Positions 1,691-53,456 of a stretch of DNA of 64,000 bases are shown one piece after another. The position numbers and the translations under genes were made by a program. Each line of letters starts with the position of its first letter. The stretch's first letter is position 1. The notes under the pieces are model-generated. The model was not told where the DNA came from, did no database searches, and was given only the letters and a program-made list of their open reading frames with translations. This DNA comes from Heliopora coerulea (Eukaryota; Cnidaria; Anthozoa; Scleralcyonacea; Helioporidae): positions 1,488,001 to 1,552,000 of the forward strand of contig JASJOG010000018.1 in the NCBI GenBank assembly GCA_030142905.1, written 5' to 3'.

Positions 1691-2126
1691 TAAACATTCT
1701 CCTAACTAAATGGCTGGCCGACGAACTTGATTGCTGTCGTAAGTTCTATAATATAATCTCTGCTATTGTTATGATGCAACTACATCGACTTTTTTAAGAA
1801 GGCCATTAGCAAGGAGGAGGAATTTGGACAACCAACGACGACGAAGGTTTTGGAAGAAGCCCAGTCAAATAGATAGCTGGTGGCAACACTCAATTGACGG
1901 GATTTTACGTTAAGAACAGCAGAAAAAAAACTCGCGTATGCCTGGTCAAGTATTCATGAAATTGGCCGATTTTATCGATTTTAAATTTTATCACGTGCTG
2001 CAGTCGAAACTTCTACGTCCACCATGTTGTTATGAAGTAATTTTGACGTACGCATGCGTAATTGTGTCAAAGTTAACCCTACCTCCCGAGATAACTTGGG
2101 CTGAAGCTTTCACATAGAAAATATTA

Positions 2127-2966
2127 ATGATAAAAAAACCGGTGGATATACTTAGCATTAATGAAACAAGATTAGATGCTACAATTTGTAATAACGAAAT
2201 AAATATCTCTGGGTATGCTTTATTCAGAAAAGACAGATCCAGAATTGGCGGTGGCGTATGCCTTTACATTAGAGAGGTGTTTAATGTAATTGACAGAGCG
2301 AGAGATGTTCCCTTCAATTTGGAAGCCGTTTGCGTTGAAATAACTATACCTAAATCTAAACCTTTTCTTGTTACAACGGTATATCGACCCCCTAATTCAG
2401 GATCTGACTTTGTGGACCTTTTTGAAACCTATTTACTAAAACTAGACAAGGACGATAAAGAGTTAATTGATACAGGGGATTTTAGTTGTGATCTTTCTCT
2501 GAGTATTTTACAACCTCATGCTAGTAGTCATGCTAGCTTACTGGATATTATTGCCACAAACAGACCTTATGAATTATTGAATTCAGGTGTTTTACACATT
2601 GGGATCAGCGATCATAGTTTGGTCTATGCTTGCTTTAAAATAGCCGTCCCTAAACAAAATCCTAAATTTATTGAAAGTAGAACTTTTAAACATTATAATC
2701 AGAATCTTTTTAACCAAGATCTCCAGAATATGTTGAACAAACAGAATTGGAGCTCTCAAGACCCCAGCCACCTTTGGGAAAATTTTAAAGAAGTTTTTAT
2801 TTTAGTATCAGAAATTTATGCTCCGATAAGATTTCGCAAAGTTCGTAGCGAATATGTTCCTTGGATGACTCATAGTTTAATTCAGGAAATGAGCCATCGT
2901 GATTATTTAAAAAAGAGAGCAGTAGCATTAAAATCTGAATCATTACACAATTTATATAAAAAGTAA
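2127..2966 (+). pseudogene. Retrotransposon apurinic-type endonuclease domain
   Basis: The frame shows the endonuclease signatures INETRLD (catalytic Glu), GGGVCLYIRE, TTVYRPPNSG, a GDF box and ISDHSLVYA (the SDH box with catalytic Asp-His). This enzyme nicks target DNA to prime reverse transcription. Between the GDF box and LLDIIATN the spacing is shorter than usual, pointing to an internal deletion of some tens of residues. The frame ends at a TAA (2964-2966), and translation resumes in the same frame straight after it, reading into the RT region at 3054. The true start is lost; the first Met is only the first one available. Confidence 0.85.
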
Positions 2967-3053
2967 CGCAATCGAGTAAATTACCTGATTAAAAATGCGA
3001 AAAAGAAATTTTGTCTTGAAAGCATTGACTTAAATAAAGGAAATTCGAGAGAA

Positions 3054-4136
3054 ATGTGGAAAAGCATTAATTTAATTATTGGGCGCAAAGGCCGAAGTTC
3101 TAAAACTACTACAATTTCCTCAATTAAACAAAATAATACAACTAACATTGTGACAAACGAAAAGGACATTGCTGAATCCTTAAACGAGTATTTTACTGAG
3201 ATTGGTCCTAGCCTCTCAAAAAAATTGGATAAGACCAACGCTCAATATTTAGACTATATAACACCTGCTGAATGTGAGTTTAATTTCAGTTATATAACCT
3301 GCGAAACTGTTTTACATACAATTAATGGAATAAAATCTAAAAAAGCAGCCGGGCCAGATATTTCGGTAAATTTGTTGAAGGATTCAGCTAATGTTTCTGT
3401 ACCTTTCTTAACTACAATTTTTAACTTATCGTTAAACTACGGTGTTTTTCCAAATGATTGGAAAAATGCACGTGTTTCACCAATTTATAAGTCGGGAGAA
3501 AAAGATGAATGCGGTAATTATAGGCCAATTTCGATACTATCCGTTGTTTCTAAATTATTCGAAAAATTGGTTTATAAACAAGTATACTCTTATTTAGAAA
3601 ACAACGAACTTTTAACTCCTTTCCAGTCGGGTTCTAGAAAAGATAACTCGACTAGCACATCTTTATTAAACACAACCAACACTTGGCTGGTCAACATGGA
3701 CCAAGGTCCGATAAATGGAGTAATTTTCCTTGATTTAAAGAAGGCCTTCGATACTGTAGACCACGAGATCTTAATAAAAAAATTAGAGTTATATGGTATT
3801 AAAGGAAATAGTCTGCGTTGGTTCATTTCATACCTGAGTGACCGTACACAAATATGTAAAGTTGGAATGACAATTTCTTCGAAAAAATATATAAAGACCG
3901 GTGTGCCACAGGGATCTAATTTGGGTCCATTATTATTTATACTTTATGTAAATGACCTACCAAACTGTTTAAGCAATTCTATCCCTGCTCTGTTTGCAGA
4001 CGATACCAATGTAACGACATCTGGACCGTCTGTGGAAGATATCCAACGTAAACTAAATAATGAGTTGGATAACTTACATCAGTGGTTGCTTGCGAATAGA
4101 TTGTCTTTGAATGTCAATAAAACGGAGTACAGTTAA
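3054..4136 (+). pseudogene. Retrotransposon reverse transcriptase
   Basis: Reverse transcriptase of the L2/CR1 group. Visible motifs in order are [62 protein letters not shown] (first catalytic Asp), KTGVPQGSNLGPLLF and ALFADDTNV (the catalytic DD pair). It is in the same frame as the endonuclease and is separated from it only by the stop at 2964. The frame breaks after NKTEYS, where a one-base deletion relative to the family moves the C-terminal part to another frame at 4238. Confidence 0.9.
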
Positions 4137-11734: not shown

Positions 11735-13546
11735 TCATGTTCTTATAGATAATGTTTTTCTAAGTATATGTGCAGTACCAATGAGAGTAATCTTCTGCAG
11801 TTCTTGAAGCTTGCTATTTCCCAGAATTCTCTCGACATTCCTACTAGTTCCCTTTCGGATCATTCCTAGTGCGCCCATGATGACTGGTATCGTTGTTGCG
11901 TTTAGATGCCACATCCTGGTGATCTCAATTTCCAGGTCTTTATATTTCTGAAGTTTATCATATTCTTTAGTCGAAATGTTGCCATCACAGGGAACTGCCA
12001 TGTCAATAATTTGACATGTCCTTGCTTTGAAGTCTTTGATAACAATGTCTGGTTTATTGGCCGTGGTGGTACGGTCTGTGTGAACTGTGGAGTCCCAAAG
12101 AATTGTCACATCTTTTCCATTGGTGACCTCTACAGGATGATGTTCGTACCATTTCTCAGGAACTTTGATGTTGTAATGCTTGCACACATTCCAGTGGATG
12201 TATTGGCCTAAACGATCATGGCGAGCCTTATATTCTTTAGACGCTAATATAGGGCAGCCAGCTATGAGATGATCTACTGACGCATCTGACTTTTTGCAGA
12301 TGCGGCAAAGAGGGTCTGTACCGTCGTTAACTATCTTAGATCTATAGACGTTTGTCGGGAGGCTCTGATCTTGGGCTGAGATCAAGAGACCCTCGGTTTC
12401 CGCTTTGAGACCTGACCCTTGAAGCCAACGATGTGTGGATTTACTATCAACATCAACTTCTTCTAGTCTTTGTAGGTATTTGCCGTGCAGTGGTTTATTT
12501 CTCCAGGTTTCCTTAAGAGCATTTAGACCAGCCTTTTTTGCCCGTTCTTTCAGTGTTTTGGCAGCAGCTGTTGGTTTAAGTTGATCTTCTTCTACTGTTG
12601 GTTGCACATCATACCGATGTTTCAGTTTTCTACTCAAGGTTATTATGGAATTCTTCCTTTTAGATTTCTCATACTTCAACACAGCTTGTAGCATGGGATC
12701 TGTTGTTGTTTCGAGATATCTACCAAGGCCGATCAGCGTAGTTTCATAAGCCATCTCGAGTTGGTTGAGTCCGCGTCCACCATCAGTGCGAGGTAGATAC
12801 AATCTGTCAACATCTGATTTGGGGTGGTGCATACGAAATTTAGTTAACAGTTTGCGTATTTTAGTATCTATTCTTGCTACGTCTGTTTTGCTCCAATTTA
12901 TGATTCCAAAACTGTAAGTGACAACAGGAGCTGCAATGCTGTTAATTGCTTTCACTCTGTTAGAGGAATTCAGTTCCGACTGAAGAATTAGTCGAACTCT
13001 CCTGTAACATTCTTTACGAATTTTTTCTTTCATCGCCGTGTGTTTGATACCATCACCTTCGTGGATACCAAGGTATTTGTAGACCTCATCATGTTCAAGG
13101 TTTCTGATCTTAGTGTTTGTATCCAGATTGATGTTACTCGCCTTGCAGAACTTGCCACGTTTAAAGCTGGCTTTTGCGCATTTGTCAAGTCCAAACTCCA
13201 TGCCTATGTCGTCGCTGAAGTCTTTCACGATGGTGAGAAGGTCTTCGAGATCACTGTCATTTTTAGCGAATAGTTTGAGGTCATCCATGTAAAAGAGGTG
13301 GGTGATGACTTGATCAAATATATTATATCCCCGATTTGATTCATTCAAAAGTTTCGATAAGGGAAACAGGGCAATACAGAAGAGAAGTGGAGAGAATGAA
13401 TCTCCTTGGAATATTCCTCGGTTGATGCTAATGCTGTTAGATGTTATAGATCCATTACCGTGATTAAGGATAAGAGTTGTCTTCCATGTTTTCATACTAA
13501 TTTTAACGAAGTTGGTAATTTCTGGTGCCACCTTATACATTTCCAT
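11735..13546 (-). pseudogene. NeSL/R2-like reverse transcriptase with restriction-like endonuclease, 5'-truncated
   Basis: 603 open residues. It starts inside the RT: INRGIFQGDSFSPLLF, then FYMDDLKLF with the catalytic YMDD at residues 86-89. The C-terminal half has a C-x2-C-x8-H-x4-C knuckle (C414, C417, H426, C431) followed by a PD-(D/E)xK-type nuclease, with KPD at 498-500 and QIIDMAVPC at 512-520. This layout defines the restriction-like-endonuclease non-LTR elements (R2, NeSL and relatives), which usually insert at fixed sites. The fingers of the RT and the N-terminal DNA-binding part are missing, with reading continuing only as WINKAME upstream. The frame is otherwise intact, implying a fairly young copy. 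Confidence 0.9.
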
Positions 13547-13559
13547 TGCTTTGTTTATC

Positions 13560-13693
13560 CAGTCTATTTAACCCATAGTTGGGGGCATACCAGGTTGCTC
13601 ACAGTTGCCACCTGCGACCTGGGGCTAGTGGACCGAAGGGACGCCATCCCCATTGAGAGGCTGAGACCAGGGTCTGTCCTCTCCCACAGCGGG
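13560..13693 (-). other. Terminal module related to the repeats at 24780-24960
   Basis: Contains GAGAGGCTGAGACCAGGGTC and TGTCCTCTCCCAC, resembling GCAGGCTGAGACCCCTTCC and TGTCCTTA at 24800 and 24905. In each case the module sits beside an (ATT)n/(AAT)n tract, so it is probably an end of the same retroelement family. Confidence 0.4.
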
Positions 13694-15899: not shown

Positions 15900-17030
15900 T
15901 ATTGTATAGGGTGTAATGACTTAATAAAAATTAAACTAGTAACACTATAGCGATAAGGTCAAGAAAACATGATAGAAATAAATTCAGAAGTTACTTGTAG
16001 TATGTTTTGATCAAGTTGTAAGCTTTTTTGATGTCGACTACACCTACAGTTGCTTGGTTGCAGGTGCTGTAATAACACCCATGTTGATTGTTTGGGGCTT
16101 TTTGTACTATTAAATACAACTGCAACCACCAACCAACATGGGCTGCCCTGCGTTTGTCCACTGAGTCTCGGGGTAAGCCGAGGAGGTTGATGGCAGTCTG
16201 CCAGTACAGTTCTGTACATTCATACTCATGTCATCTTAACAATTTCCGGGATATCGTGTTCAACGAGGATCATTTCTTAACTTGTCGGCGTTGTCGCTCG
16301 GCCCTCGTGTACAGCAGATCCTCTGATATGATGCCTTCTTACCACTAAAGATTTCTTAGCATGGTTTCGAGGTCGATTTGAGAAAAATACGCACGAGTAA
16401 GATTTTCAAAGACTCATCAAAATAGCTATTTAAAGTCTGAAAAACTCACGAGCGCGGTTTTTCCAAATTCCACGAGAAACCTTGCGACCATCAATAACAT
16501 ATATTAAAAAGTAAATACAGTGCCTAAAAAGGCAGTTCAGTGCAAATTGGTGTTACCTTTCTACTGCACTGTCACCTTGAAATTCAACTGTTCTCAGCCA
16601 ATCAGAATCGAGTCATTTTTTTATGCTTATTATTGCGCGCGTTCAATGCCAAGGTCCAAGTCCCATACATAGGTTGCCTTGGGAAGTTTTATTTTATAAA
16701 TTTCGTTTCAAATCGCATGCAAGAGGCAAGGCAAGAAAATTTTACCAATTTTTTCGATTCTGGAGAGCAACAACATGGAACACTTGCAACGAGGAAATTT
16801 AATAAAGATTTAGCAGGAGAAATTTTGCCTGCCGTAGGTAGTCATTTTGACGGATTTAATAAGAGGTCATGCAATTACTTATAAACAATGAAATGATTTT
16901 ATAATCAACTATCACAAACTTGTCACTACGAAAGTGAACTACTGAAAAGCAATCCACTAGGGGCTGTCAGAATGCCGCTGTACAGGCCATAGTTCTGTAT
17001 CCTCTCCAACTCACAATGAATATGGCGAAA
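15900..17030. other. No gene recognised
   Basis: AT-rich spacer downstream of the GPX gene. A 114-residue plus-strand frame at 16540-16884 has no recognisable motif or splice context. Confidence 0.35.
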
Positions 17031-17033
17031 AAC

Positions 17034-17039
17034 TTTATT
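17034..17039 (-). promoter_or_regulatory. Poly(A) signal AATAAA of the GPX gene
   Basis: Canonical hexamer on the minus strand about 205 bases past the GPX stop codon, bounding a 3' UTR that includes the SECIS candidate. Confidence 0.5.
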
Positions 17040-17104
17040 ATGTTAAAGATTTAATTTACGCTGAAGGTTAAGCATTTGACATGAATAAAAATTAACTTCT
17101 GCAC

Positions 17105-17170
17105 AAGATAATATTTCATCAACCTTAGCTTTTTATACATTTCAGGCAAAGGCATCATAAATTCATTCTC
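17105..17170 (-). promoter_or_regulatory. Candidate SECIS element (selenocysteine insertion signal)
   Basis: On the minus strand ATGA (17158-17155) is followed by exactly 12 bases and then AAA (17142-17140); the 3' side carries TGAT (17121-17118). The helix between is GCCTTTGC with GC-T-AAGGT: G-T, two C-G, two T-A, a T-T mismatch, G-C and C-G. This is the SECIS layout of an AUGA/UGAU non-Watson-Crick core, an 11-13 nt stem and unpaired apical adenines. Flanking bases can form a weaker lower helix. It lies about 85 bases after the GPX stop, where a SECIS is needed to decode the TGA at 19793. I paired it by hand and did not fold it. Confidence 0.6.
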
Positions 17171-17243
17171 AGTTATGCTCACGCTCAGACAATTATTTCA
17201 CAAAAGTTAGCAAAAATCTCAAAAATATAGTTGCCTGGGCAGT

Positions 17244-17577
17244 TCATAGTGAAGGTCCTAATAAATTCAAAATATCTTTCTCAATACTTTTTGGAGCTGT
17301 AGTGGGTGCGTAGCGCTTCACAGGTATGCCTTCTTGATCACAGAGAAACTTGGTAAAATTCCACTTTATTCGATCTCCAAATGTCCCTCCTTTCACTTTC
17401 TTCAAATAGACATAAAGAGGATGAGCGTTGGTTCCATTTACATCAATTTTACTGAACATGTCAAACTCAACACCAAATCCTTTAACAAACTCTTTGATTA
17501 CAGTTTCGTCATCTGGTTCCTGATTTCCAAACTGATTGCATGGAAATCCTAAAATACGTAATCCTTTCTCAGCATAC
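17244..17577 (-). CDS. GPX4: Glutathione peroxidase (GPX4-type), exon 2
   Basis: The exon begins after TTTAG at 17577 and completes a Lys codon split at 19746, reading [20 protein letters not shown]. The catalytic-tetrad Gln lies in PCNQFG, and the Trp and Asn in IKWNFTKF. It continues with [18 protein letters not shown] and VKRYAPTT and ends LLGPSL at TGA. The shape (no oligomerisation loop, FPCNQFG, short C-terminus) is that of GPX4 phospholipid-hydroperoxide peroxidases, which reduce lipid hydroperoxides in membranes using glutathione and guard against ferroptosis-type damage. The single visible intron (17578-19745, 2.2 kb) contains a 130-bp hairpin. Confidence 0.93.
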
Positions 17578-18565
17578 CTAAATAATTGGAAAAAGTCATG
17601 AGTGTAATCTTATGTTTACTTAGAGCAGCATCATGCTGCAGAGATGGGCAGAGCAACAAGTCTCACACAACTAGAATGTTTTTCAGCAGGTAGAAAGAAA
17701 AAATGTCAGTGCAAAGGAGCTCATTTTATTTTAAATCCAAGACCCTCTTTTTTAAAAATTTCACTCATGCTAATGCCAGGAAATTTCACTCACCAAGAGG
17801 ACTTGTCCTAGGATTCCTAGCCACCTTAAGGTTGATAAAGTTAAGAGGAAGCGTATGGTTTGAGGTTTCTGAAAAGATCTGCACCACAGCATGCCTCCAA
17901 AAACCTTTCACCATGTAACCATTACCCCTAGACCCAAACCTCATAGTCTTAGACCATGCACAGTGGGTGAAGTCATTCATATTCCTTTAATTTTTGCCTT
18001 CTTTAAAGAGAAAAAGTTATCAGTGTGATTTTTTTTTCCCGCAGTTTTTAATTTTGCTTCCTGAGCAGGATGATAAAAATTTTCTGAATATGGTCAATTA
18101 CAAAATGAATAGCTAGGTTGCATCAAATAAACAAAAAAGAACATAAGGCAAGACACTGTACTGATGGCAATGTGAAGCACTTATTATGCAAGTCCACATC
18201 AATATTAATCATCTTCAAAAATCCAGAGGATAAAAATGATTTGGGAGAGAAGACCGAAGGAAAAGTTTATATAAAGTAGGGCAATTTTGTATCATATTTA
18301 CTACAACTGATTGAATGTTCATTTCTTTTTTTTCTTCATCAACTGTTAATTAACTAATTAAAGCACCTGACGTGTAAAATCCTCTGGCATTAGCCAGAGT
18401 AAAAATTCAAGAGTGTGCCCTTACCCCTTAATGGGTTATCAACTGTACCATAAACCCAAGTCCTACATGAGCTCACAGCCAGTTACAGTACATATAAACT
18501 GCAGTGCTGGTGATGAGTTTACTGTATGTATATTAATAGGAGTAACTGGCAGGCAGGGTCATGGG

Positions 18566-18695
18566 AAAACAGCAGTGTTCTTGAGGTCATACACTATCTA
18601 AAAGATAAAAAAAAGCTTCTCAACATTTCGAGACGTCGAGAAGCTTTTTTTCTATCTTTTAGATAGTGTATAACCTCAAGAACACCGCTGTTTTA
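18566..18695. repeat. Long hairpin (inverted repeat) in the GPX intron
   Basis: Arms of about 55 bases (AAAACAGCAGTGTTCTTGAG with CTCAAGAACACCGCTGTTTT, continuing through ACACTATCTAAAAGATA and AAGCTTCTC) with only a few mismatches, around a spacer of about 16 bases. Probably a fold-back MITE. Confidence 0.9.
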
Positions 18696-19745
18696 TCAAA
18701 GCTATCTACACTGGACCCCCGTGCCTTAGAGGGTCATGGGAACCTGGCACCAAGTTCCTCTAAATTTAAAAAAATAAGGCTTCAATTTTTTTGCTGCAAG
18801 TTGAGGTCTTTGAAGAAAGAAAACATGACAAACAGTTTCAGAGAATGTATTAGGAAGTTATTTCAACTTTATTCTTTTTATATATATAATGTTTTCAATC
18901 ACTGTGACTTGAAACTGATGTATGTTACAGGAAGTGTTTCTGGGCTGCGTTTTCTGTTTGCAGTTTGTTGCCTGAACCATTTGTGTTTACGTTAAGTATT
19001 CCATGGCCTCTACCTTCACTGAAATGTTGCCACAGACCAGTTTGTTGTTCGTTTTTATTTTTTCCAAAATTGTTTGTTGGACAAAAAAGAGAAATGTTTC
19101 AATACATGAAGTAGATCAGTTGTTTTTACTTGTTTGCTAATGGCTAAAACACTTCTTTCTCAGAAAAGACCAGCCTAAAAGTAAATACTGTGTGAAAATC
19201 TGTTACCCACTCCAAGCAGTCAATAATGTTTTTCTTCACCATTTAAGACATAACTCACTTTTTTGATAGTTTAATTGCAATTCTCTTAAGAACTTTTTTT
19301 TTGAAATGTTTTCCCGTGGTTTTCCAGTGCTCCATCGAGATGTGGAGAATGCATGGTAGGCAATTAGAAGCGGCGCTGAATTAAATGTATACCTGTGTTA
19401 TAATATGCATGTAACACGTATTATAATTTATAATTTATTTTATATCCCCAGCACAAACTGTCCAGTACCAATTACCGGTCAATATCAATAAGCAGAACAA
19501 CAATCTATTTCTATCTACTGAGAAGATTGGACAAATTTGTGAATTATTCGGCTAATCCGAGTTCTTCCAAGTTGTGGATGTTCAATCAAACATCGATATT
19601 ACGTAATCCATCAAATTTTACTCAGTAGTTTTAACCAAGAAAACAACTTCAATGTTATTAAATTAATCATATCAAAAGAAATAATTAGTTTTTGTCATCA
19701 TCTCAAATAAACTAAGCCATGTCAATTTTATCTACGTTCTCTTAC

Positions 19746-20038
19746 TTCTTGTGCAGTTCTTGAAGCTGAGTATAGTTTGCGTTAGTAAAACCTCATTTGG
19801 AGGCGACGTTGACGATGAGTGTCACAAATCCCTTATATTTCGATAGAGAAACGTTTATTCCATTGATATCTTTTGCTTCAAACCCAAATATGTTTTTTGG
19901 GGATTCTTTTGCGCCAGCCATTATCCCTCTTCCTGATAATTTTGCTAAGTATTGGAGATTTCGAGCTAGAGACCGTATTGGCCTTACCATGGAACGAACG
20001 AGGTGTATCCACTGGGTGTATCTGCTTCTTTCCATCAA
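19746..20038 (-). CDS. GPX4: Glutathione peroxidase (GPX4-type), exon 1, with in-frame TGA (selenocysteine)
   Basis: Reads IFGFEAKDINGINVSLSKYK, then VTLIVNVASK, TGA (19795-19793), GFTNANYTQLQELHK and a split codon at a GTAAGA donor. In GPX enzymes the residue after VASK is the peroxidatic Sec or Cys, so the TGA is read as selenocysteine; annotators who treat it as a stop will truncate the protein. Two starts are possible. The Met at 20038 gives an Arg-rich, amphipathic-looking leader like a mitochondrial signal, and the Met at 19921 (MAGAKESPKN) gives a cytosolic form. GPX4 genes of animals are known to use such paired starts. Confidence 0.93.
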
Positions 20039-21849: not shown

Positions 21850-23700
21850 AGGATTATATCACTCCAACTGAAAGGTGTTTCTCTATTAAGGAGACAAATA
21901 GTACTAAAGTATATGATTTGATACAGTTGCTTTCGATACACAAGGCTACTGGCCTTGATGGGATATCTTGTAGACTACTGAAGGAAGCTTCTCAAATTAT
22001 TATTCCATCTTTAACCTTTATTATTAATTTATCCATCAGTAGTGGAATCTTTCCAAATGATTAGAAAGTAGCCAAAGTTAGGCCTGTTCATAAGGAGGGT
22101 GCTAAGTCAAATCGTGATAATTATTGTCCCATATCAGTTCTGCCAATAGTTAGTAAGATAATAGAAAAGATTGTATTCGAACAATTCTTTGAATATTTGC
22201 TCAATAATAATTTATTGGCCCATTCACAGCACGGATTTAGACCAAAACATTCTACCCTGACAACTCTTCTTTTATCTACATATAGATGGTATCAAAATAT
22301 TGATGAGGGATTACTAAATGGGGTTTTATTCCTAGATTTAAAAAAAGCCTTCGACACAGTTGACCATCAAATATTACTTGACAAACTTAAAATGTATGGA
22401 GTTGAATTCAATTCTCTCAAGTGGTTTAAATCTTACTTAACAGGCCGTACAAACATAGACAATGTACAAACATAGATGGTATTTTGTCTAATTATCTGCC
22501 TATTATTTGTGGGGTCCCCCAAGGCTCAGTTCTTGGACCTTTATTATTTTTATTTTACATAAATGATTTCCAATCTTGTCTTTCATCATCATCTATGATG
22601 ATGATGAAACTGATGATCATCATCATCTATGATGATGATGAACTAAAGAATGTTCAAATTTGGCTACAAGCAAATAAACTCACTTTAAATGTTAAAAAAT
22701 CGAAGTATCTAATTATTGCTAGTCAAAAACGCCTTAGTAGCCTTGACTACCATTTCAATATTGGAATAGATGGAATGTATATGGAAAGAGTCATTTCCTA
22801 CAAATATCTAGGTGTTGAAATTGATGAAGTGCTAAACTGGCAGGTACACGTTGATGGTCTATGTAAAAAGGTATCAACATGTCTTGGGGTCTTAATGCAA
22901 AATAGATGCCTAGTCCCTTATGATACATTGCTATTGATGTATAAAGCATTGGTACTACCTTACCTAGATTACTGTAGTGAAATATGGGGCTGTTTAGGAA
23001 AAACCCTATCTGACAAACTCCAAAAGCTTCAAAACAGGGCAATTAGAATTATAACTTTTTCTGATTATGATGTCAGTGCAGTCGATCTATTGCAATCCCT
23101 TGGATGGGATACTCTTGAACAATGTCGTAATAAGCAAATGGCAGTTAGTATTTATAAATCATTGAACCATTTGTATCCTGAAGAGCTTAATTTACTATTT
23201 GAAACAACCTCCCAGATTCATTCACATAGTCTGAGAGACAGCTCTAGCAATATCTTTATACCAAGGCCTTTGACAGAGACTGGAAAACGAACTTTTGGCT
23301 ACAGAGGGGCTGTTCTATGGAATGAGCTTTCTGATGTAACAAGGAATAGGCCGACTGTTCAGTCTTTTAAAAATTCTTTATAACTGTGGAGGGGCGATTC
23401 AGTGGAATTGGGCTTCCAATGTAATATAAGTTAAATTTTTAATATTTTAATGTACTTAGCATGGGTATGTGTGTATGTGTGTGCTTTTGCATTCATGGAT
23501 ATGTATGCTCATGTATGTGCGTGTAATGGCCTGTGTACAAATATTTTTTATATGGCCTGTGTACAAATATTTTTAATTTTGTCACAGGTTAATAATTTCT
23601 TTTTTATAGCACGGCTCATTGGAAGAGCATTTCTTTGAATGAAATGATATGGTGTGTGCTAATAATTTTTCATTTCTAATAAAACCTTATGAGGATGATG
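21850..23700 (+). pseudogene. L2-like retrotransposon, RT with its catalytic motif replaced by a GAT repeat
   Basis: Begins mid-protein around LLSIHKATGLDGISCRLLKE, with a stop where a Trp is usual (NDW to ND-stop near 22063). It continues with [34 protein letters not shown], a frame change near 22476, CGVPQGSVLGPLLFLFYIND, and then ATC/GAT repeats where the FADD motif should be (22586-22640). After this the protein reads ELKNVQIWLQANKLTLNVKK through RTFGYRGAVLWNELSD to 23383. A 3' region ending in GATGATGATGA at about 23693-23704 follows. It lacks the endonuclease. Confidence 0.88.
22586..22640. repeat. CAT/ATG trinucleotide inverted repeat inside the RT
   Basis: Alternating CATCATCATCTATGATGATG blocks form a self-complementary tract, about 55 bases, at the position of the RT catalytic Asp-Asp codons (GAT GAT). 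Confidence 0.85.
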
Positions 23701-25879: not shown

Positions 25880-27545
25880 CCGGGAGCGAAGATAAAACCC
25901 TGGGTACGAGGTTTAGTGAACGGATTTTAGTCCGCAGTTTTCATTGGTTTAGAAATCAAACATATGATTGGTTAAAAATTTCTAGTATAAATATGGTTTG
26001 TATCCTACTTCGCACGTGGACACAGAGAAGATTTGTTACGAAGCAACGTGCGGAGAGGTTCGTTGAAGATTTCGTTATCGAACTCTTTGATGAGTCGTCT
26101 CATCAAACTATTGGCTTCGGGGAAAGTCCCCGGACATTAGGTAGAGAGTACCTGCCGTAGACGGCTGCTGTCTGTCCTGTTGTTCAATGGCCAAGATACC
26201 GTCAATGGTGGAGTCGAACGAAAGGAAGATGTTTCGTCAAAGCAAAGTTATACAGATGGCCAGCTGAATTGAGTTGGTTCAACATAATGGGGCTTACTCT
26301 TGCTGTGTCCACCACCTTTTTAAATATGAGAAAGAATAACGAATGAAATTACTCGATGTGTTAGTCCATACAGAGTTTATGACAGTTACTTCGCCACGTG
26401 GTTATCACTCTCATGCTTTAACTCCGTGATTGACTGTAGTCTCATTTTGTCAGTTCTTTCTCGGAATTAGCTATCATACTGCAAGATCGCACTTCCAATG
26501 TTAAAATGTTTAACTGGATGGAGAACTGCTGAGAAGAAGTTGGAGATTGTCTTATTAGGACGACAAATTAGACGAGGTCGGTCGTGGTGCTTTGTGGTAT
26601 GAAATTCACCTGTTTATCTTGATAGATAGATTGACTGTTGGGTCAGTTATTGAGTATAGATTTATCAAATTTCGTGTTACACAATGCTTGTACGCTAGAG
26701 AGTGGTACACGCTATAATTTTCTCTGATTACCATGCTCTTCAGAATCTGACTCAGAGGATCAATTCAAGTGTAGTCCCCCCACCCCCTAAGGGAGGACTA
26801 CACTTGAATCACCTAGTTGGGTCATTTAAGTATAGTTCCCCCAAAGCTTTATCATATATCGTGAAATCAAACAAAACCTTTTATTTAATATTAACAATCA
26901 CAAACTTTTTGGCCTAAACAGAATTTTGTATCTGAATAAATTACTTCTTAATAAATAGCATTAATTATTAAACCAAATGTCTTGTTTGGGAAATCAAATC
27001 CTGTCAACCTTGACCAGCTCTGTTGAGTTTCATGGGAACCCATTTCAAAGCCTATTCGAAATTTTCAGTTCAATCATGATTTATTGTGGCTACCATGTTA
27101 CCATACAAATAGATCATATTTTGGATCAATGACTCATAAGCCATCCATCCATTATATAAAGACCTGAAATGTTTATCAATGGGCAAGAGCAGACCAGTGA
27201 GAACAAGTTCAAAGCAATATTGGACAAAATTGCATAGCAATATGGTGTCCGATAGATGGATGACAATAATAATAAACTTGTTCCTTTGGGAACCAACACA
27301 AACTTCGAGGCAACTCATTGCTATGTGCTCTCTTATTTTGATATGATATTGTGAAGGGCAGTACCAGATTTTTGATTTCGTTGGAGAAACTTGTAACCTG
27401 AATTCAGATATTAGCAGATAACAATATCCATAGCAAGTTTCAACATCTATGTCAGATTTTTAATTTTGACCACTTTATTTATCACTTAAATGGAGTTATT
27501 AGTCAATGTTTGTATCAATACACATGACAAAATTATAATCTAACA
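25880..27545. other. No gene recognised
   Basis: Contains a TATAAATA-like box at 25986 with CG-rich sequence after it and a GGGGAAAGTCCCCGG mini-hairpin at 26119-26134, but no ORF longer than 71 codons. A non-coding transcript cannot be excluded. At 26770-26812 there is a short inverted repeat around CCCCCACCCCC (AAGTGTAGTC with GACTACACTT). Confidence 0.3.
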
Positions 27546-29754: not shown

Positions 29755-30654
29755 TTAGGGGAATGTTGGTGGCCTTAAAAGATCTTGGTAGGTCATTCCT
29801 TTTTTTAGCCCCAGAATAACTAATACTTTTTTGAGAAAATTTGTTTTGGGCTTATCTAAAGCATAATCAAAGTTATTATTCCGTAAGCGGTATGTTTGAT
29901 TATTTGGCACTTTGAAAAGGTTAGAAGTACTTTCCAGATATTCTCCTTTCCTTACTTTGTACATAAATACAGCTTTGTTGTCTTCCCTTCTCTCCACCAA
30001 TAGTTGCCAATTTAATTCTCTAATGATCGCAATAGATCTAAATTCATGTGATTTACCAGTAATGACTCGTGCAGCCCTGTTTTGCATTTTTTGTAGTTTT
30101 TCAAGTAAATAGTTATCGCAGGTATTCCAAACAAGGCTACAATAGTCAAAATATGGCAAAACAATTGCATTCTAGACTGAGATCAGTGTCTCTTGTGGTA
30201 CGAAAGCTTTCATACGCCTGATCATCCGTATACCCTTAGACATCTTACTAACTATATTATTTAAATGGGATTTCCATTTAAGTTGGTCATCGACTATGAC
30301 TCCCAGTGTTTTGGTTTCTTTCACCCTATATATTCTACTTCCTCCAAGTTTAAGATCAGGGTCATTATTAATATTGTTTAGTCTTTGTCTAGATCCAACG
30401 ATCATGTATACAGTTTTTTCTTTATTTACAGTTAGTTTATTAGTCAGCAACCATTGGTGTATATGTTCCAAGTCTTCATTTAAATTTGTTTCAATATCAG
30501 CAATAGAGGGACCGCTTGTTCTTAAATTAGTGTCGTCAGCGAACATACTAGCTGTGGATTTACGTAAGCAGTTAGGCAAATCATTAATGTAGATAAGAAA
30601 TAACAGTGGCCCCAAATTTGAGCTTTGTGGGACACCACATCGAATGATTCTCAA
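29755..30654 (-). pseudogene. L2-like retrotransposon, RT palm to C-terminus
   Basis: Minus-strand reading CGVPQSSNLGPLLFLIYIND, SMFADDTNLRTSG (catalytic DD intact), HIHQWLLTNKLTVNKEKTVY, KTLGVIVDDQLKWKSH, then an in-frame TAG at 30174-30172 where a Tyr codon is usual, then AIVLPYFDYCSLVWN, LQKMQNRAARVITG and LRNNNFDYALDKPKTNFLKK. 5'-truncated at the VPQG box, exactly where a hAT fragment (30650-30774) begins. Confidence 0.9.
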
Positions 30655-30774
30655 CTCTAAATGACTACTGAAAATGCGTTTGCCGTTTGTTCAGGTAACC
30701 CGATTTAGGCTAAGTCTTGTCGGAAATTTTTCAAATCTCGCTCCCTCTCCAGAAATTGTTACATACGCCGCTGT
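30650..30774. mobile_element. Right-end fragment of the 8839-9568 hAT family
   Basis: Nearly identical to 9439-9568 (TCTCAACTCTAAATGACTAC through TTTGCCGTTTGTTCAGGTAA to the CGCCGCTG end). The left part is absent; the break coincides with the 5' end of the L2 copy. Confidence 0.85.
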
Positions 30775-44308: not shown

Positions 44309-45050
44309 CAGTGGCATAACTACGGGGGGGCGTGAGGGGTCACGTGGCCCCCATCTGATGACTGTGCCTCCCCCATTTGAAATTTTCAAATTGGGAAAAA
44401 TTGCAGAATCAAATCCAGTTGCTAGTTTGCTTGTGAAATATATTTACTCCATATTAAGTCTAAAAGTGAAATGGGAAATGCAAGTTGTCGAACTGTTCGA
44501 ATTTGACTATTTTTTTGACCGCTTAGCCCGTGCTAGGACGTCAGGCTCAAAAGTGCACGCTCAACCGAATAAGCAAAATACCGGTAGTTTAGGAGTCAGT
44601 GGATGAGTGGGTGGCTGCTATTTAAACGTAGTAATAACGGAAGAATAGCTTTTTGATAAATTTTGATAAATTGAGGAGGCAAGTCAATGTCATCGTTTGT
44701 TGTGTATTAGTAGGGGGTAGGTAGTTCCACGATGAAGTTCCACGATGAAGTTCCACAAAAATAAAAAAAAAAATAAAGTCAACACTGTACGTGGTCGTTT
44801 GCCGGTTCAATTGAATATTGCTCATTGTGTTGTGCTGTGGACTACACAAACATTTTATGAACCAAATTTGAGGTTAACATGTATTCGGAGTTCTTTTGGC
44901 AGTATAGTTCACCAACCATGTAAATGCAAAATATCGAAATTCACTTAATTTGATAAACGTTTTATAGCGAAATATCTAGTGCCCTCCCCAAGATATGGTT
45001 ATGCCCCCTTGGGTGCCCCTCTATTTTTCAACCACAGTTACGCCACTAAA
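44309..45050. mobile_element. hAT-like element without recognisable target duplication
   Basis: Left end CAGTGGCATAACTACGGGGG; right end inverted TAGTGGCGTAACTGTGGTTG. Flanks (AGGCTGGG and AAGTTAGA) do not match, so the ends have decayed or come from two copies. It directly abuts the NeSL/R2-like RT at 45050. Confidence 0.6.
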
Positions 45051-45842
45051 GTTAGAATGTTTAATGTGGATCAAAAGAAGTTTTATCAAGAATTGGATGG
45101 TAAGAGTAGACCGGAGAAAATTATACCTGATGCTGAAGAAAGCAAGACGTTTTGGGGTAGTTTGTGGGACATTGTAAGACAACATAATGATCAGGCAGAA
45201 TGGTTACAAGAATTAAAAGAAGAGATGGCTTATCCCGTTCAAGAAAATCTGCACATTAGCAAAGATAAGGTAGAAATGCAGTACCGAAAGATACCTAACT
45301 GGAAAGCACCGGGACCTGACGGGGTGCAAGGGTTCTCGATTAAGAAATTAACAGCTTGTCATCAAAAAATAGCGGAACAACTGGAAAAGATATTCAATGA
45401 AGGGGAAGAGCTTCCTGATTGGATGACGTGTAGCAGAACAGTTCTTTGTGCAAAGGATCCTAGAAAAGGCAATGCTGCAGACAACTTTAGACCTATATCA
45501 TGCCTCCCATTATTATGGAAACTTATGACTGGTATCATTTCTGAAAGTATTTACGGCTTTCTGGATAGCAACGGAATTCTACCAAAGGAACAAAAAGGCT
45601 GCAAAAGACAATGCAGAGGAACAAAAGAGCAGTTATTTATTGATAAGTTGGTTCTTAAGGATTGCATGAAAAGGCATACCAATTTAGCAATGGGATGGGT
45701 AGATTATCGGAAAGCATGCGACATGGTACCGCACTCGTGGGTCGAAGAATGCCTGAAAATGTTTGGAATTGCCAGAAATGTGGAACAGTTCATATGTAAT
45801 AGCATGATGAAGTGGAAAACAGAATTGACTGGTTGTGGATAG
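45050..45842 (+). pseudogene. NeSL/R2-like reverse transcriptase, N-terminal half
   Basis: Reads NVDQKKFYQELDGKSR, RKIPNWKAPGPDGVQGFSIK, NFRPISCLPLLWKLMTGIIS, GILPKEQKGCKRQCRGTKEQ, WVDYRKACDMVPHSWVEECL. In the catalytic A box the usual KKAYD/VP pattern appears as RKACDMVPHSW. The frame leaves the family at 45842, just before a 352-bp hAT insertion. The other half continues at 46235. It is related to the minus-strand copy at 11735-13546. Confidence 0.88.
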
Positions 45843-45877
45843 AGTCTAGGCCTCGTGAAGATAAGAAGAGGTATATT

Positions 45878-46229
45878 CATAGGCGAACGGGAGAGTGGGG
45901 GCTAGGGCTGCAGCCCCCCTCAGATTCAGGCATCGCCAAGTTTTTCGGGCGACATTTCCTTTTTTTTGGGCAGAAGTCTTTATCTCCTCATAACCTGGGA
46001 TCTGAGAGGAAAAGCTCAGCACTTTTAGACTTAACGTATTGTCAGTTGATATAGTTTCGTTTATATCCATTTCGATGTGATTTTAGTATTGCGTAAAATA
46101 TATAATAAGCGCAGTTTTTTTGAAGGCATGGCTTAGTGGTTGGTTCATTTTGAAAATTCGGGCGACGCAGAAAATTTTCGGGCAACAGGCCTCAGTCCCC
46201 CCAGTTGAAATCGGTCCTGTACGCTTATG
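45878..46229. mobile_element. hAT-like MITE inserted in the NeSL/R2-like RT
   Basis: Ends CATAGGCGAACGGGA and, inverted from the right, CATAAGCGTACAGGA; GGTATATT flanks both sides (45870-45877 and 46230-46237). The host reading of the RT is interrupted exactly here. Confidence 0.82.
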
Positions 46230-46234
46230 GGTAT

Positions 46235-47120
46235 ATTCTAAGGAGACAGTTTGTCACCATTGCTGTTCGTACTTTGTGTGGAACCTCTTAGCTTTATACT
46301 AAGGAAAGTGAAAGCAGGATATGAATTTAAGGGCCAGGAAAAAATGATCAACCATCCACTGTGCACGGATGACCTTAAGCTATATGGCAAGAATGAGGCC
46401 CAGATTGATTCTTTGGTGAAAACGTTGCAGCTCTTCGGTAATGATATAGGCATGGAATTCGGCATCAAGAAGTATGGGGTGTTAATATTAAAGAGAGGGA
46501 AGATTGTTCAATGTAATGGTATAGTACTGCCGAATGGAGAAGTGATGAAGGTAATTGAACAAGATGGATATTTGTATTTGGGAATCTGGGAGATGGATAG
46601 AATATTGGAAGAAGAAATGAGATTGAGGTTTAAAAAGTAGTATTTTAGGGGGTTGACACTAGTTATGAATTCGAAACTCAACAGGAGAAACAAAATACAA
46701 GCTGTGAATACGTGGGCAGTGGCACTACTAAGGTATTGTCCAGGAATAGTTACTTGGAACAGTTAAGGAGTAAAGAACTTAGAAAAACGAGGAAGATACT
46801 GACATTGTTTGGAGCTTTCCACCCTAAGAGTGATGTGGACAGACTATACCTGCCGAGAGAAAAAGGAGGTAAAGGGTTGATAAGCTGTGAGACATGTATC
46901 AGATCAGAAGAGAACAGTATTGGGTAGCATATCAAGAATGCGGTTGAACCAATGTTAGTGGAAGTGAAAAAAAGGTCATAATGACTGAGAATAGCATACC
47001 TAAGGTATAGTATAAGAAGAAAGATGTTGAAGAAAAGGAGCGAAGATGGATGGACAAGAGAATGTATGAACAGTTTAACAGATAAAAGTGAAGACATAGA
47101 CAAGGACAAAATGTGGTGGT
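46235..47120 (+). pseudogene. NeSL/R2-like reverse transcriptase, C-terminal half (broken)
   Basis: After the insertion the frame resumes with SPLLFVLCVEPLSFILRKVK, HPLCTDDLKLYGKN (the catalytic box is CTDD where the paralogue has YMDD), GNDIGMEFGIKKYGVLILKR and YLYLGIWEMDRILEEEM. Frame changes follow, then FHPKSDVDRLYLPREKGGKG (close to the 11735-13546 copy) and a decayed stretch to about 47120. The zinc knuckle and nuclease are not visible, so it is 3'-truncated. Confidence 0.82.
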
Positions 47121-50824: not shown

Positions 50825-51346
50825 GTAAGCGTCGCAGCCAACTGTCACTTACAAAGGTAACTAGAAATACGAACATCCCACCACTCCTCCCTACCATTTA
50901 ATCTTGTTCTCTGTGAATGCGAACGAAGTTGACGGGTTGTAAAAGTTATCGAAGAGCGTAAAATTTAAATTTAATTAACAAATCTCCCTTATTATAACTG
51001 GAAACTGAAAGTGTTACTCTAAAGTCGTTTTAAAGTAGTGAATATTAACAATTACAAACGCTAACCATAACCCTAAACATTCGCCAAAACGATTGTTCTC
51101 GATTCCATTTTTACGATGGCGTGGATTGCGTCCGCTAAAGTGCTGTCTAGCCAGTGGCAGTCGGGAAGAAAACCGGAAGAAAAATTCATTTAGAACTAGT
51201 GCACATAAAACAGAGTAAGTGGGTTATTGAACTTCGAACAGTGGCGTAGCCAGGCGGGCGAGGGGGCAGTTTTCCTACGGAAGAATGGAAAGGGACAAAG
51301 TCGGGACAAAACTTAGAAGGAACGAGACGAAACCAAAAATGATTAT

Positions 51347-53456
51347 ATGAAAGTAAAGGTCAGACAGGGAAATAATACTGCAAAGTCTGCCTTTGGAAAA
51401 TGGTTAGCCGACTGTAACTGGACTGCTTTGTGCCATACTTCTTCATGGGAAAAAAAATTAGGTCTTTTTCATAGTGTTATTAATACTGGATTGGATTGTT
51501 TTCTTCCATCTAAAACCATCAAGTTGCATGACAAAGATAAACCTTGGATAACTCCACGATATAAGAAAATTATCCAAAATAGGCAAAAGCCGTTTTATCA
51601 AGGAAAAAGTTCGTGGAATTGTTATTTACGTAACCAGGAAAATAGAGAAGGCAAGAAGCTTAAATCTAGTTTTCTTACGAAGAAACTGGAACAATTAAAG
51701 TCAAGTCCTAATCCTAAGAAATGGTGGAATTCCATGAAACAACTTGCAGGATACCCCATGAAAAAGGTCCTTTCAACTTTTGTTGTAGACAATCGGGTGG
51801 TTACTGGAAAAGCCTTCGCTGATGGAATTGACGATGTTTTTGTCCCACTTACTAAGGAAATTCGTACTTTAGATTCTATTTTTGTTGATGACCAATTGGA
51901 GGGTGCTAATTTGGGTATTCTACCAGAGTTTATTATTAGAGAAGAAGATTTATACCACAAATTGTCTTTCATATCTACCTGTAAATCATCAGGTCCAGAC
52001 GGAATACGTAATTGGGTTCTAAAGTTTTATGCTCACGTACTTGCTTCTCCTGTGGCTTCAATTTTTAGTGCGTCTGTTCAACAGGCCGTCGTTCCTACTA
52101 TGTGGAAAAAAAGCTGATGTTATCCCTGTTTCAAAAGTACCAATACCTGTTGATATTATCAAGGATTTACGCCCAATTTCCCTAACTGATACCTTGTCTA
52201 AAATCTGTGAATATTTTATCACAGATTGGCTAAATGAATCGATAAGATTCATAAACGGCAATTTGGTTCTTTAAAAAATTCTTCGACGACACACACTTTA
52301 TTAAGCCTCGTTCATTATATCTTAAGAGAAACATATGCATCGAAGTGTGCTGTTGGAGTTTTTCTTCTTGATTTTTCAAAAGCTTTCAATTTTATAGACA
52401 ATAACATCCTCTTGTATAAGTTACTTGAGTTGAAAGTACCATCTATTATAATAAATTGGATAAGAAGTTTTCTCACTTTTGATTCTGAAGATGACCGCCG
52501 CTAAGGCTGTCGAAACGTCAGTCACTTCCACCAACAGTCTTTCTCAAGACTACACTAACCTGGACGATCAACTTCCACAAACATGTCAAGTTTTCTCACT
52601 GATCGCAAGCAGCGTGTCAAGTTGGCCTGCTGTGTTTCAAATTGGCAACATTTAGATTGAGGAGTAACGCAAGGAACGGTCATGGGACCAGTACTTTTCT
52701 TTGTTATGGTAAATGACCTTCTTACAGAATGGGCTGACCTATGGAAATATGTCGACGATAGTACCTTCAATGAAAGTATTGTTCCAGATTGTAATAGTAA
52801 TCTTCAAGAACTCCTGAATTACATTTATAATTGGACTACTTTGAACAATATGAAGCTTAATGTTACTAAATGCAAAGAATTGGTGATTGACTTTGCAAAA
52901 GCGAAACGAGGTTTTCCGCTATTTATTGTAGATGGTGTCGTCGTTGGACGCGTAGAATTCGCTTGTATTCTAAGGCTTATTGTACAAGATAATATGAACT
53001 GGAACGAGCATGTTAACCAAATCGTAAAAAAGGCAGGGAAAAGGCTCTCTATGTTAAGGCTATTCAAACGATCAAATGCTGATATAAATATTTGGATCAC
53101 TGTGTACACTACCGTTATAAGGCCTGTTTTTGAATATGCTTGTCAGGTTTGGCATTTTAACATTCGAGATTATTTAAGCGGCGACATTGATAAGATTCAA
53201 AGACGTGCATTAAGAATTATGCTGCCATGGTTAAGTTTTAGTGGCCCGGAACTCTATGGATATACCTTTACTTAAAGTGCGCCGCGAAAAATTGTGCGAA
53301 CAATTTTTTTACAGGAACATGAATAATGATAAATTATGCGAGTTTTTGATAAGTAAAACTTCATTTAATTATAGTATGAGACCGAGATGTAAATATAGCA
53401 GTTATTTATATGAAACCGAACGTTTTAGGAAATCATTTTACCACAAATTGTTTTAA
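51347..53456 (+). pseudogene. Crack/Daphne-like non-LTR retrotransposon RT, multiply broken
   Basis: Segments in order: DKDKPWITPRYKKIIQNRQK, KKWWNSMKQLAGYPMKK, STCKSSGPDGIRNWVLKFYA, a frameshift near 52110, ADVIPVSKVPIPVDIIKDLR and PISLTDTLSKI, a stop at about 52274, GVFLLDFSKAFNFIDNNILL, a 110-bp insertion (52478-52587), GVTQGTVMGPVLFFVMVNDL, LWKYVDDSTFNES (catalytic YVDD), NMKLNVTKCKELVIDF, RPVFEYACQVWHF, DKIQRRALRIMLPWLS. The PVPKV/DLRPISLT and KYVDDST wording is that of the Crack/Daphne clade of the CR1-L2 group. The 5' endonuclease is missing. Confidence 0.85.
52478..52587 (+). mobile_element. 110-bp insertion with 13-bp duplication, hammerhead-core-like
   Basis: AAGTTTTCTCACT occurs at both borders (52465-52477 and 52588-52600), and removing the insert restores the RT reading. 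The insert has CTGAAGA (52485-52491), a stem GACCGCC/GGCTGTC with one mismatch, and GAAAC (52512). A retroposed Penelope-like fragment is the likeliest source. Confidence 0.8.

Follow-up and report, generated by a model that had tools for sequence, protein, structure and literature searches.

A GPX4-type gene in cnidarian DNA with an in-frame UGA codon and a candidate SECIS hairpin in its 3′ UTR

The stretch of Heliopora coerulea DNA analysed here, a window of 64 kb (64,000 nt), very probably contains an intact cnidarian GPX4-type (phospholipid hydroperoxide) gene in which UGA codon 81 is decoded as selenocysteine (Sec) by means of a SECIS element in the 3′ untranslated region (UTR). The reading frame, the codon, the splice signals, the catalytic residues and a hairpin of SECIS geometry are all present, and both codon and hairpin are conserved. 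The exact placement of the TGA on the catalytic codon of an otherwise open frame, together with the fact that relatives conserve both this codon and the hairpin, lifts the finding far above chance. Reading the gene correctly avoids a truncated or split annotation.

Gene structure

The gene occupies the minus strand in two exons, whose 624 nt of spliced coding sequence specify 207 residues and a stop. Its features are the following.

19746..20035, minus strand: coding part of exon 1, covering residues 1-96 in full and codon 97 up to its second base
19922..20035, minus strand: Arg-rich N-terminal extension, residues 1-38, a putative mitochondrial targeting sequence by composition and amphipathicity
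19793..19795, minus strand: TGA, residue 81, the probable selenocysteine codon (sole internal TGA; homologue column)
17578..19745, minus strand: intron of 2168 nt, GTAAGA...TATTTAG, with GT-AG ends (splice ends 19746 / 17577)
17244..17577, minus strand: coding part of exon 2 including the stop, an open frame
17244..17246, minus strand: terminal stop codon TGA
17118..17158, minus strand: candidate SECIS core, with AUGA at 17158-17155, AAA at 17142-17140, UGAU at 17121-17118 and helix II between (descriptor, pairing and the relative P0086)
17034..17039, minus strand: AATAAA, a candidate poly(A) signal 3′ of the SECIS, its function judged from sequence

Exon 1 is open except for a single TGA, the only internal one in the 207-codon frame, which falls exactly on catalytic codon 81 and leaves the other 206 codons open. 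The first in-frame ATG is at 20035 and is taken as M1 because an in-frame TAG lies upstream, at 20050-20048. Searches by tblastn with the window protein and two relatives found one GPX locus in the 64-kb window. The homologue P0001 (170 aa) is an uninterrupted ORF spanning the 19746/17577 junction, on contigs no longer than 1181 nt; its continuity across the junction fits a spliced transcript (cDNA) of a relative.

The preliminary description had placed the gene at 17105..20038, with TGA at 19795-19793 as its catalytic codon and, about 85 bases past the true stop, a hairpin bearing ATGA, 12 bases, AAA and TGAT. Its location for the gene stands while its 5′ end does not, 20038 being three bases upstream of the ATG; the codon is there, as residue 81, and the hairpin begins exactly 85 nt after the stop with every one of its elements in place.

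Two further features were seen within the gene. By eye, a GTAAG at 19987-19983 (minus strand) directly follows the second in-frame ATG of exon 1 (TCCATG|GTAAGG) and is a possible alternative splice donor. The intron harbors at 18566-18694 an inverted repeat with two 49-nt arms, 94% complementary and 31 nt apart, which looks like a fold-back element.

Protein family and the residue-81 column

The window protein contains the Pfam GSHPx domain PF00255 (148 bits versus a cut-off of 27). Its best match in a sequence search of the PDB is 2v1m (206.6 bits); GPX4 entries score near 190 bits (183-194), and other GPX proteins far lower (GPX7 125, GPX8 114, GPX1 101, GPX2 94, GPX3 82). On these scores the protein is nearer GPX4 than the tetrameric GPX1/2/3 or GPX7/8, and matches to solved GPX4 settle its predicted GPX4 fold. 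Under what we take to be the numbering of the GPX catalytic tetrad, U81, Q116, W169 and N170 occupy all four positions as expected, and the Gln, Trp and Asn are present in 120 of 120 aligned listed homologues.

Out of 8000 candidates scored for homology, the figures given here concern the best 120. The in-frame TGA lies at a column where homologues have Sec or Cys: among the 120 listed, residue 81 appears as Cys in 80, as Trp in 37 and as a gap in 3. The top-scoring P0001, which covers 81% of the query at 80% identity, has Trp. No active GPX enzyme is known to have Trp at its catalytic site, and translation of TGA as Trp by a gene caller would yield exactly such rows; for these two reasons, we infer that the 37 Trp rows represent TGA read with a Trp code. 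In some of the C rows, the letter may stand for Sec.

The region in which a resolving Cys would lie, residues 119-136, is free of Cys in the window protein, which thus lacks the resolving Cys after the Gln motif that distinguishes Cys-type GPX. In the listed homologues, Cys occurs in this region in 70 of the 80 Cys rows, in one of the 37 Trp rows and in none of the three gap rows (Fisher p 7e-20 for residue-81 type versus resolving-region Cys, a value that overstates independence as the rows are related). In a tree of 121 rows, 121 of them different, with no row named GPX1 or GPX7 and a bootstrap that had not settled, the window protein is grouped with P0001 and P0086 (support 100/99), the wider group that includes Exaiptasia and other Trp rows reaching only 92/89 and an inner one 83/16. 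One branch, at 100/89, has on one side all 37 Trp rows, 17 Cys rows, the window protein and the three gap rows, and on the opposite side the remaining 63 rows, all Cys. The tree requires seven label changes among W, C and the window; besides the gap rows, 7 of the 120 rows fall outside a neat residue-label rule.

Residues 1-38 contain eight Arg or Lys and one Asp or Glu, and their top 18-residue hydrophobic moment is 0.84 (a value without a control); this extension is a putative mitochondrial leader. M39 (19921) lines up with the initial Met of P0001, whose alignment begins at 19921. Vertebrate GPX4 has mitochondrial and cytosolic starts.

The hairpin in the 3′ UTR

The core of the candidate SECIS, in which 12 nt separate AUGA from AAA, spans 41 nt with AUGA and UGAU included. 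In the unconstrained ensemble, the pairs of helix II have probabilities of 0.93, 0.99, 0.99, 0.99 and 0.65 and, beyond a U-U mismatch, 0.97 and 0.88. The hairpin has the AUGA:GA stem and AAR loop by which a SECIS is recognized (PMC8704476), and the Sec codon lies 466 nt from the core in the spliced mRNA, beyond the published minimum of 51-111 nt (PMC8659212).

Taken alone, this hairpin is modest evidence, because shuffled sequence also gives SECIS-like matches. A loose descriptor, composed after the candidate had been seen, has one match on both strands of the whole window, the candidate at 17158-17118; on 20 shuffled windows it gave 1-7 matches each (mean 4.0), and when the 400 nt that follow the stop were shuffled, it gave at least one match in 31 of 2000 cases (about 1.6% by position). 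The fold of the 111-nt SECIS region is no more stable than its shuffles, 115 of 200 of which fold at least equally well (z 0.29). When 16700-17300 was scanned with Rfam models by cmscan, with E values as high as 10 allowed, four matches at chance level came up and no SECIS family, so that the curated covariance models in Rfam, a supporting rather than a defining criterion, do not recognize the hairpin.

Conservation of the hairpin in a relative

The decisive support for a SECIS comes from the apparent conservation of the hairpin in the 3′ UTR of P0086. The P0086 record continues past its own terminal TGA, which is rendered as Trp (table 4) at the C-terminal end of homology, and the extension thus translated matches the window at 17179-17141 (SVTENEFMMPLPE / SITENEFMMPLPE, 12 of 13 residues), with a tblastn E of 7e-5 for the extension alone and 0.001 for the full protein. 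When back-translated, the extension aligns from 17175 across both strands of the quartet, the apical loop being gapped; the alignment scores 68.8, whereas the highest of 100 shuffles scores 46.0. In P0086, 9 of 10 positions allow a helix II in the register of the window, as against 4-6 in the five other placements tried. Aligned alone, the 3′ half of the extension prefers 17094 to the SECIS (score 28.4, equalled by 1 of 300 shuffles), and conservation of the 3′ strand of the SECIS therefore rests on the joint alignment. The C-terminal extension of P0086 was also used to look for more relatives whose records read into the 3′ UTR, and it recovered only P0086 (one of two candidates). Codon conservation, for its part, was judged at the protein level.

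These comparisons bear out the remaining claims of the preliminary description. Its GPX4-type assignment agrees with the PDB scores and with the grouping with P0001 and P0086, and the comparison it proposed, of the spliced protein with GPX4 proteins, brought out GPX4 entries of the PDB near 190 bits. Its reading of the TGA as Sec is favored by homologues recoded at that column and by the Cys-free resolving region, and its reading of the hairpin as a SECIS by the geometry and by P0086. The mis-annotation it forecast, truncation or splitting at the codon, is found in kind: the P0086 protein starts only beyond the codon, and residue 81 is missing from the Hydra record P0029.

Decoding of UGA 81 and its alternatives

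In eukaryotes, SBP2 binds the kink-turn of the SECIS, and eEFSec delivers Sec-tRNA to the upstream UGA (PMC8704476, PMC8659212); an SBP2-type motif has been located in Nematostella (PMC2746813). By analogy, the hairpin of the window gene would bind SBP2 through its AUGA:GA kink-turn, and eEFSec would bring Sec-tRNA to the ribosome, placing Sec at codon 81. If expressed, the gene should yield an active GPX4, predicted from its sequence to reduce lipid hydroperoxides with glutathione at a Sec-Gln-Trp-Asn site; a start at M1 would be expected to give a mitochondrial form, and one at M39 perhaps a cytosolic form.

The same facts might conceivably be read otherwise. Were the TGA a nonsense mutation in what was once a Cys or Sec gene, and the hairpin a product of chance, the locus would be a pseudogene, at home in a window rich in retrotransposon ORFs and carrying a SECIS-like hairpin that, by itself, is not rare in shuffled sequence nor unusually stable. 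Such a pseudogene would, however, have kept 206 open codons, an intron with GT-AG ends, all four tetrad positions and a hairpin conserved in P0086, and would have acquired its stop on the one codon of 207 expected to be Sec, which makes this very unlikely. It is still harder to credit that the TGA inserts Trp or Cys without a SECIS, whether through a changed genetic code or ordinary readthrough. Trp does stand at the residue-81 column of database rows, but it is best explained by the code of the gene caller; moreover, the same gene terminates with TGA, the 80 Cys among the 120 listed rows lead one to expect a thiol or selenol, and a SECIS core is present.

A genuine Sec gene served by some other 3′ UTR element than 17158-17118 is about as improbable as the pseudogene: the hairpin has no Rfam support and an unremarkable folding energy, yet it is the sole descriptor match in the window and is the very part of the 3′ UTR that matches P0086. 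Decoding of UGA 81 as Sec through this hairpin accordingly remains our preferred reading, and it raises a question about the second UGA of the gene. One mRNA would contain two UGA codons of opposite meaning, the internal one for Sec 81 and the terminal stop, and the latter is separated from the SECIS core by 85 nt in the window and 66 nt in P0086, both within the 51-111 nt range of minimum spacing (PMC8659212). Because its distance falls within that range, there is a slight chance that some ribosomes read the terminal UGA as Sec as well, which would lengthen the protein by this Sec and 16 residues; if so, SECIS spacing would tune where the GPX4 protein ends.

Relation to known selenoproteins

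GPX4 is a selenoenzyme that protects membranes from lipid peroxidation and ferroptosis, and it attracts interest in connection with corals and anemones under heat stress. Vertebrate GPX4 resembles the window protein in its catalytic residues and in lacking a resolving Cys, its solved chains scoring 183-194 bits, and the human coding region has more exons than the two of the window gene. The top PDB match, the glutathione peroxidase 2v1m, which we take to be a Schistosoma protein, comes from a different phylum. Among the 120 listed homologues, those GPX relatives that are both close and named are cnidarian (Exaiptasia and Hydra). The Exaiptasia diaphana protein A0A913XGN7 (P0002) has, like the window protein, 207 aa and an N-terminal extension before the domain, and is 65% identical over 94%; it differs in the sequence of the extension and in showing C at residue 81 (Cys, or a converted U).

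Hydra vulgaris, of another cnidarian lineage, is named among Sec-containing GPX proteins (ABC25026) in PMC2679728; its GPX4-type protein, with Sec reported, is one of the closest known counterparts of the window gene. The comparison made here is with the record P0029: it has 66% identity over 73% of the window query and, unlike the window protein, is 167 aa long and has no residue at the residue-81 column. The same paper assigns a class I AUGA_AA_GA SECIS to Sec GPX mRNAs of flatworms (platyhelminths). Elsewhere, Sec GPX is reported as widespread outside GPX7/8 (PMC9925728), and Sec in animal GPX is dated to the rise of Metazoa from a dataset that includes five cnidarians (PMC8614756). The window gene is thus an ordinary member of a known Sec GPX4 family, of which a cnidarian example is already in print (PMC2679728); it contributes a further Sec GPX4 of cnidarian type, together with its SECIS, and leaves unchanged the published picture of an early entry of Sec into animal GPX (PMC8614756).

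Other matches and features of the window

In the viral_contigs collection, a search with the exon 2 protein gave 67 loci (L001-L067) that are GPX relatives at 33-52% identity and, as far as identity tells, are probably not coral DNA; a degenerate DNA pattern of the 5′ arm of the SECIS had 0 matches there. A tRNA scan of the 64-kb window yielded 0 genes. An RNase MRP RNA gene (Rfam RF00030) lies at 26018-26309 on the plus strand, full length over 1-266, with 111.5 bits versus a cut-off of 50. A reverse transcriptase ORF of 610 aa occupies 11735-13567 on the minus strand; its listed homologues bear PF00078, and its named matches include Oculina, Porites and Exaiptasia, and also a fish, shrimps and a cyanobacterial bin. 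Other ORFs resembling reverse transcriptase by eye lie on the plus strand at 2118-4136, 22065-23383, 44949-46640 and 51317-53275, and on the minus strand at 29755-30690.
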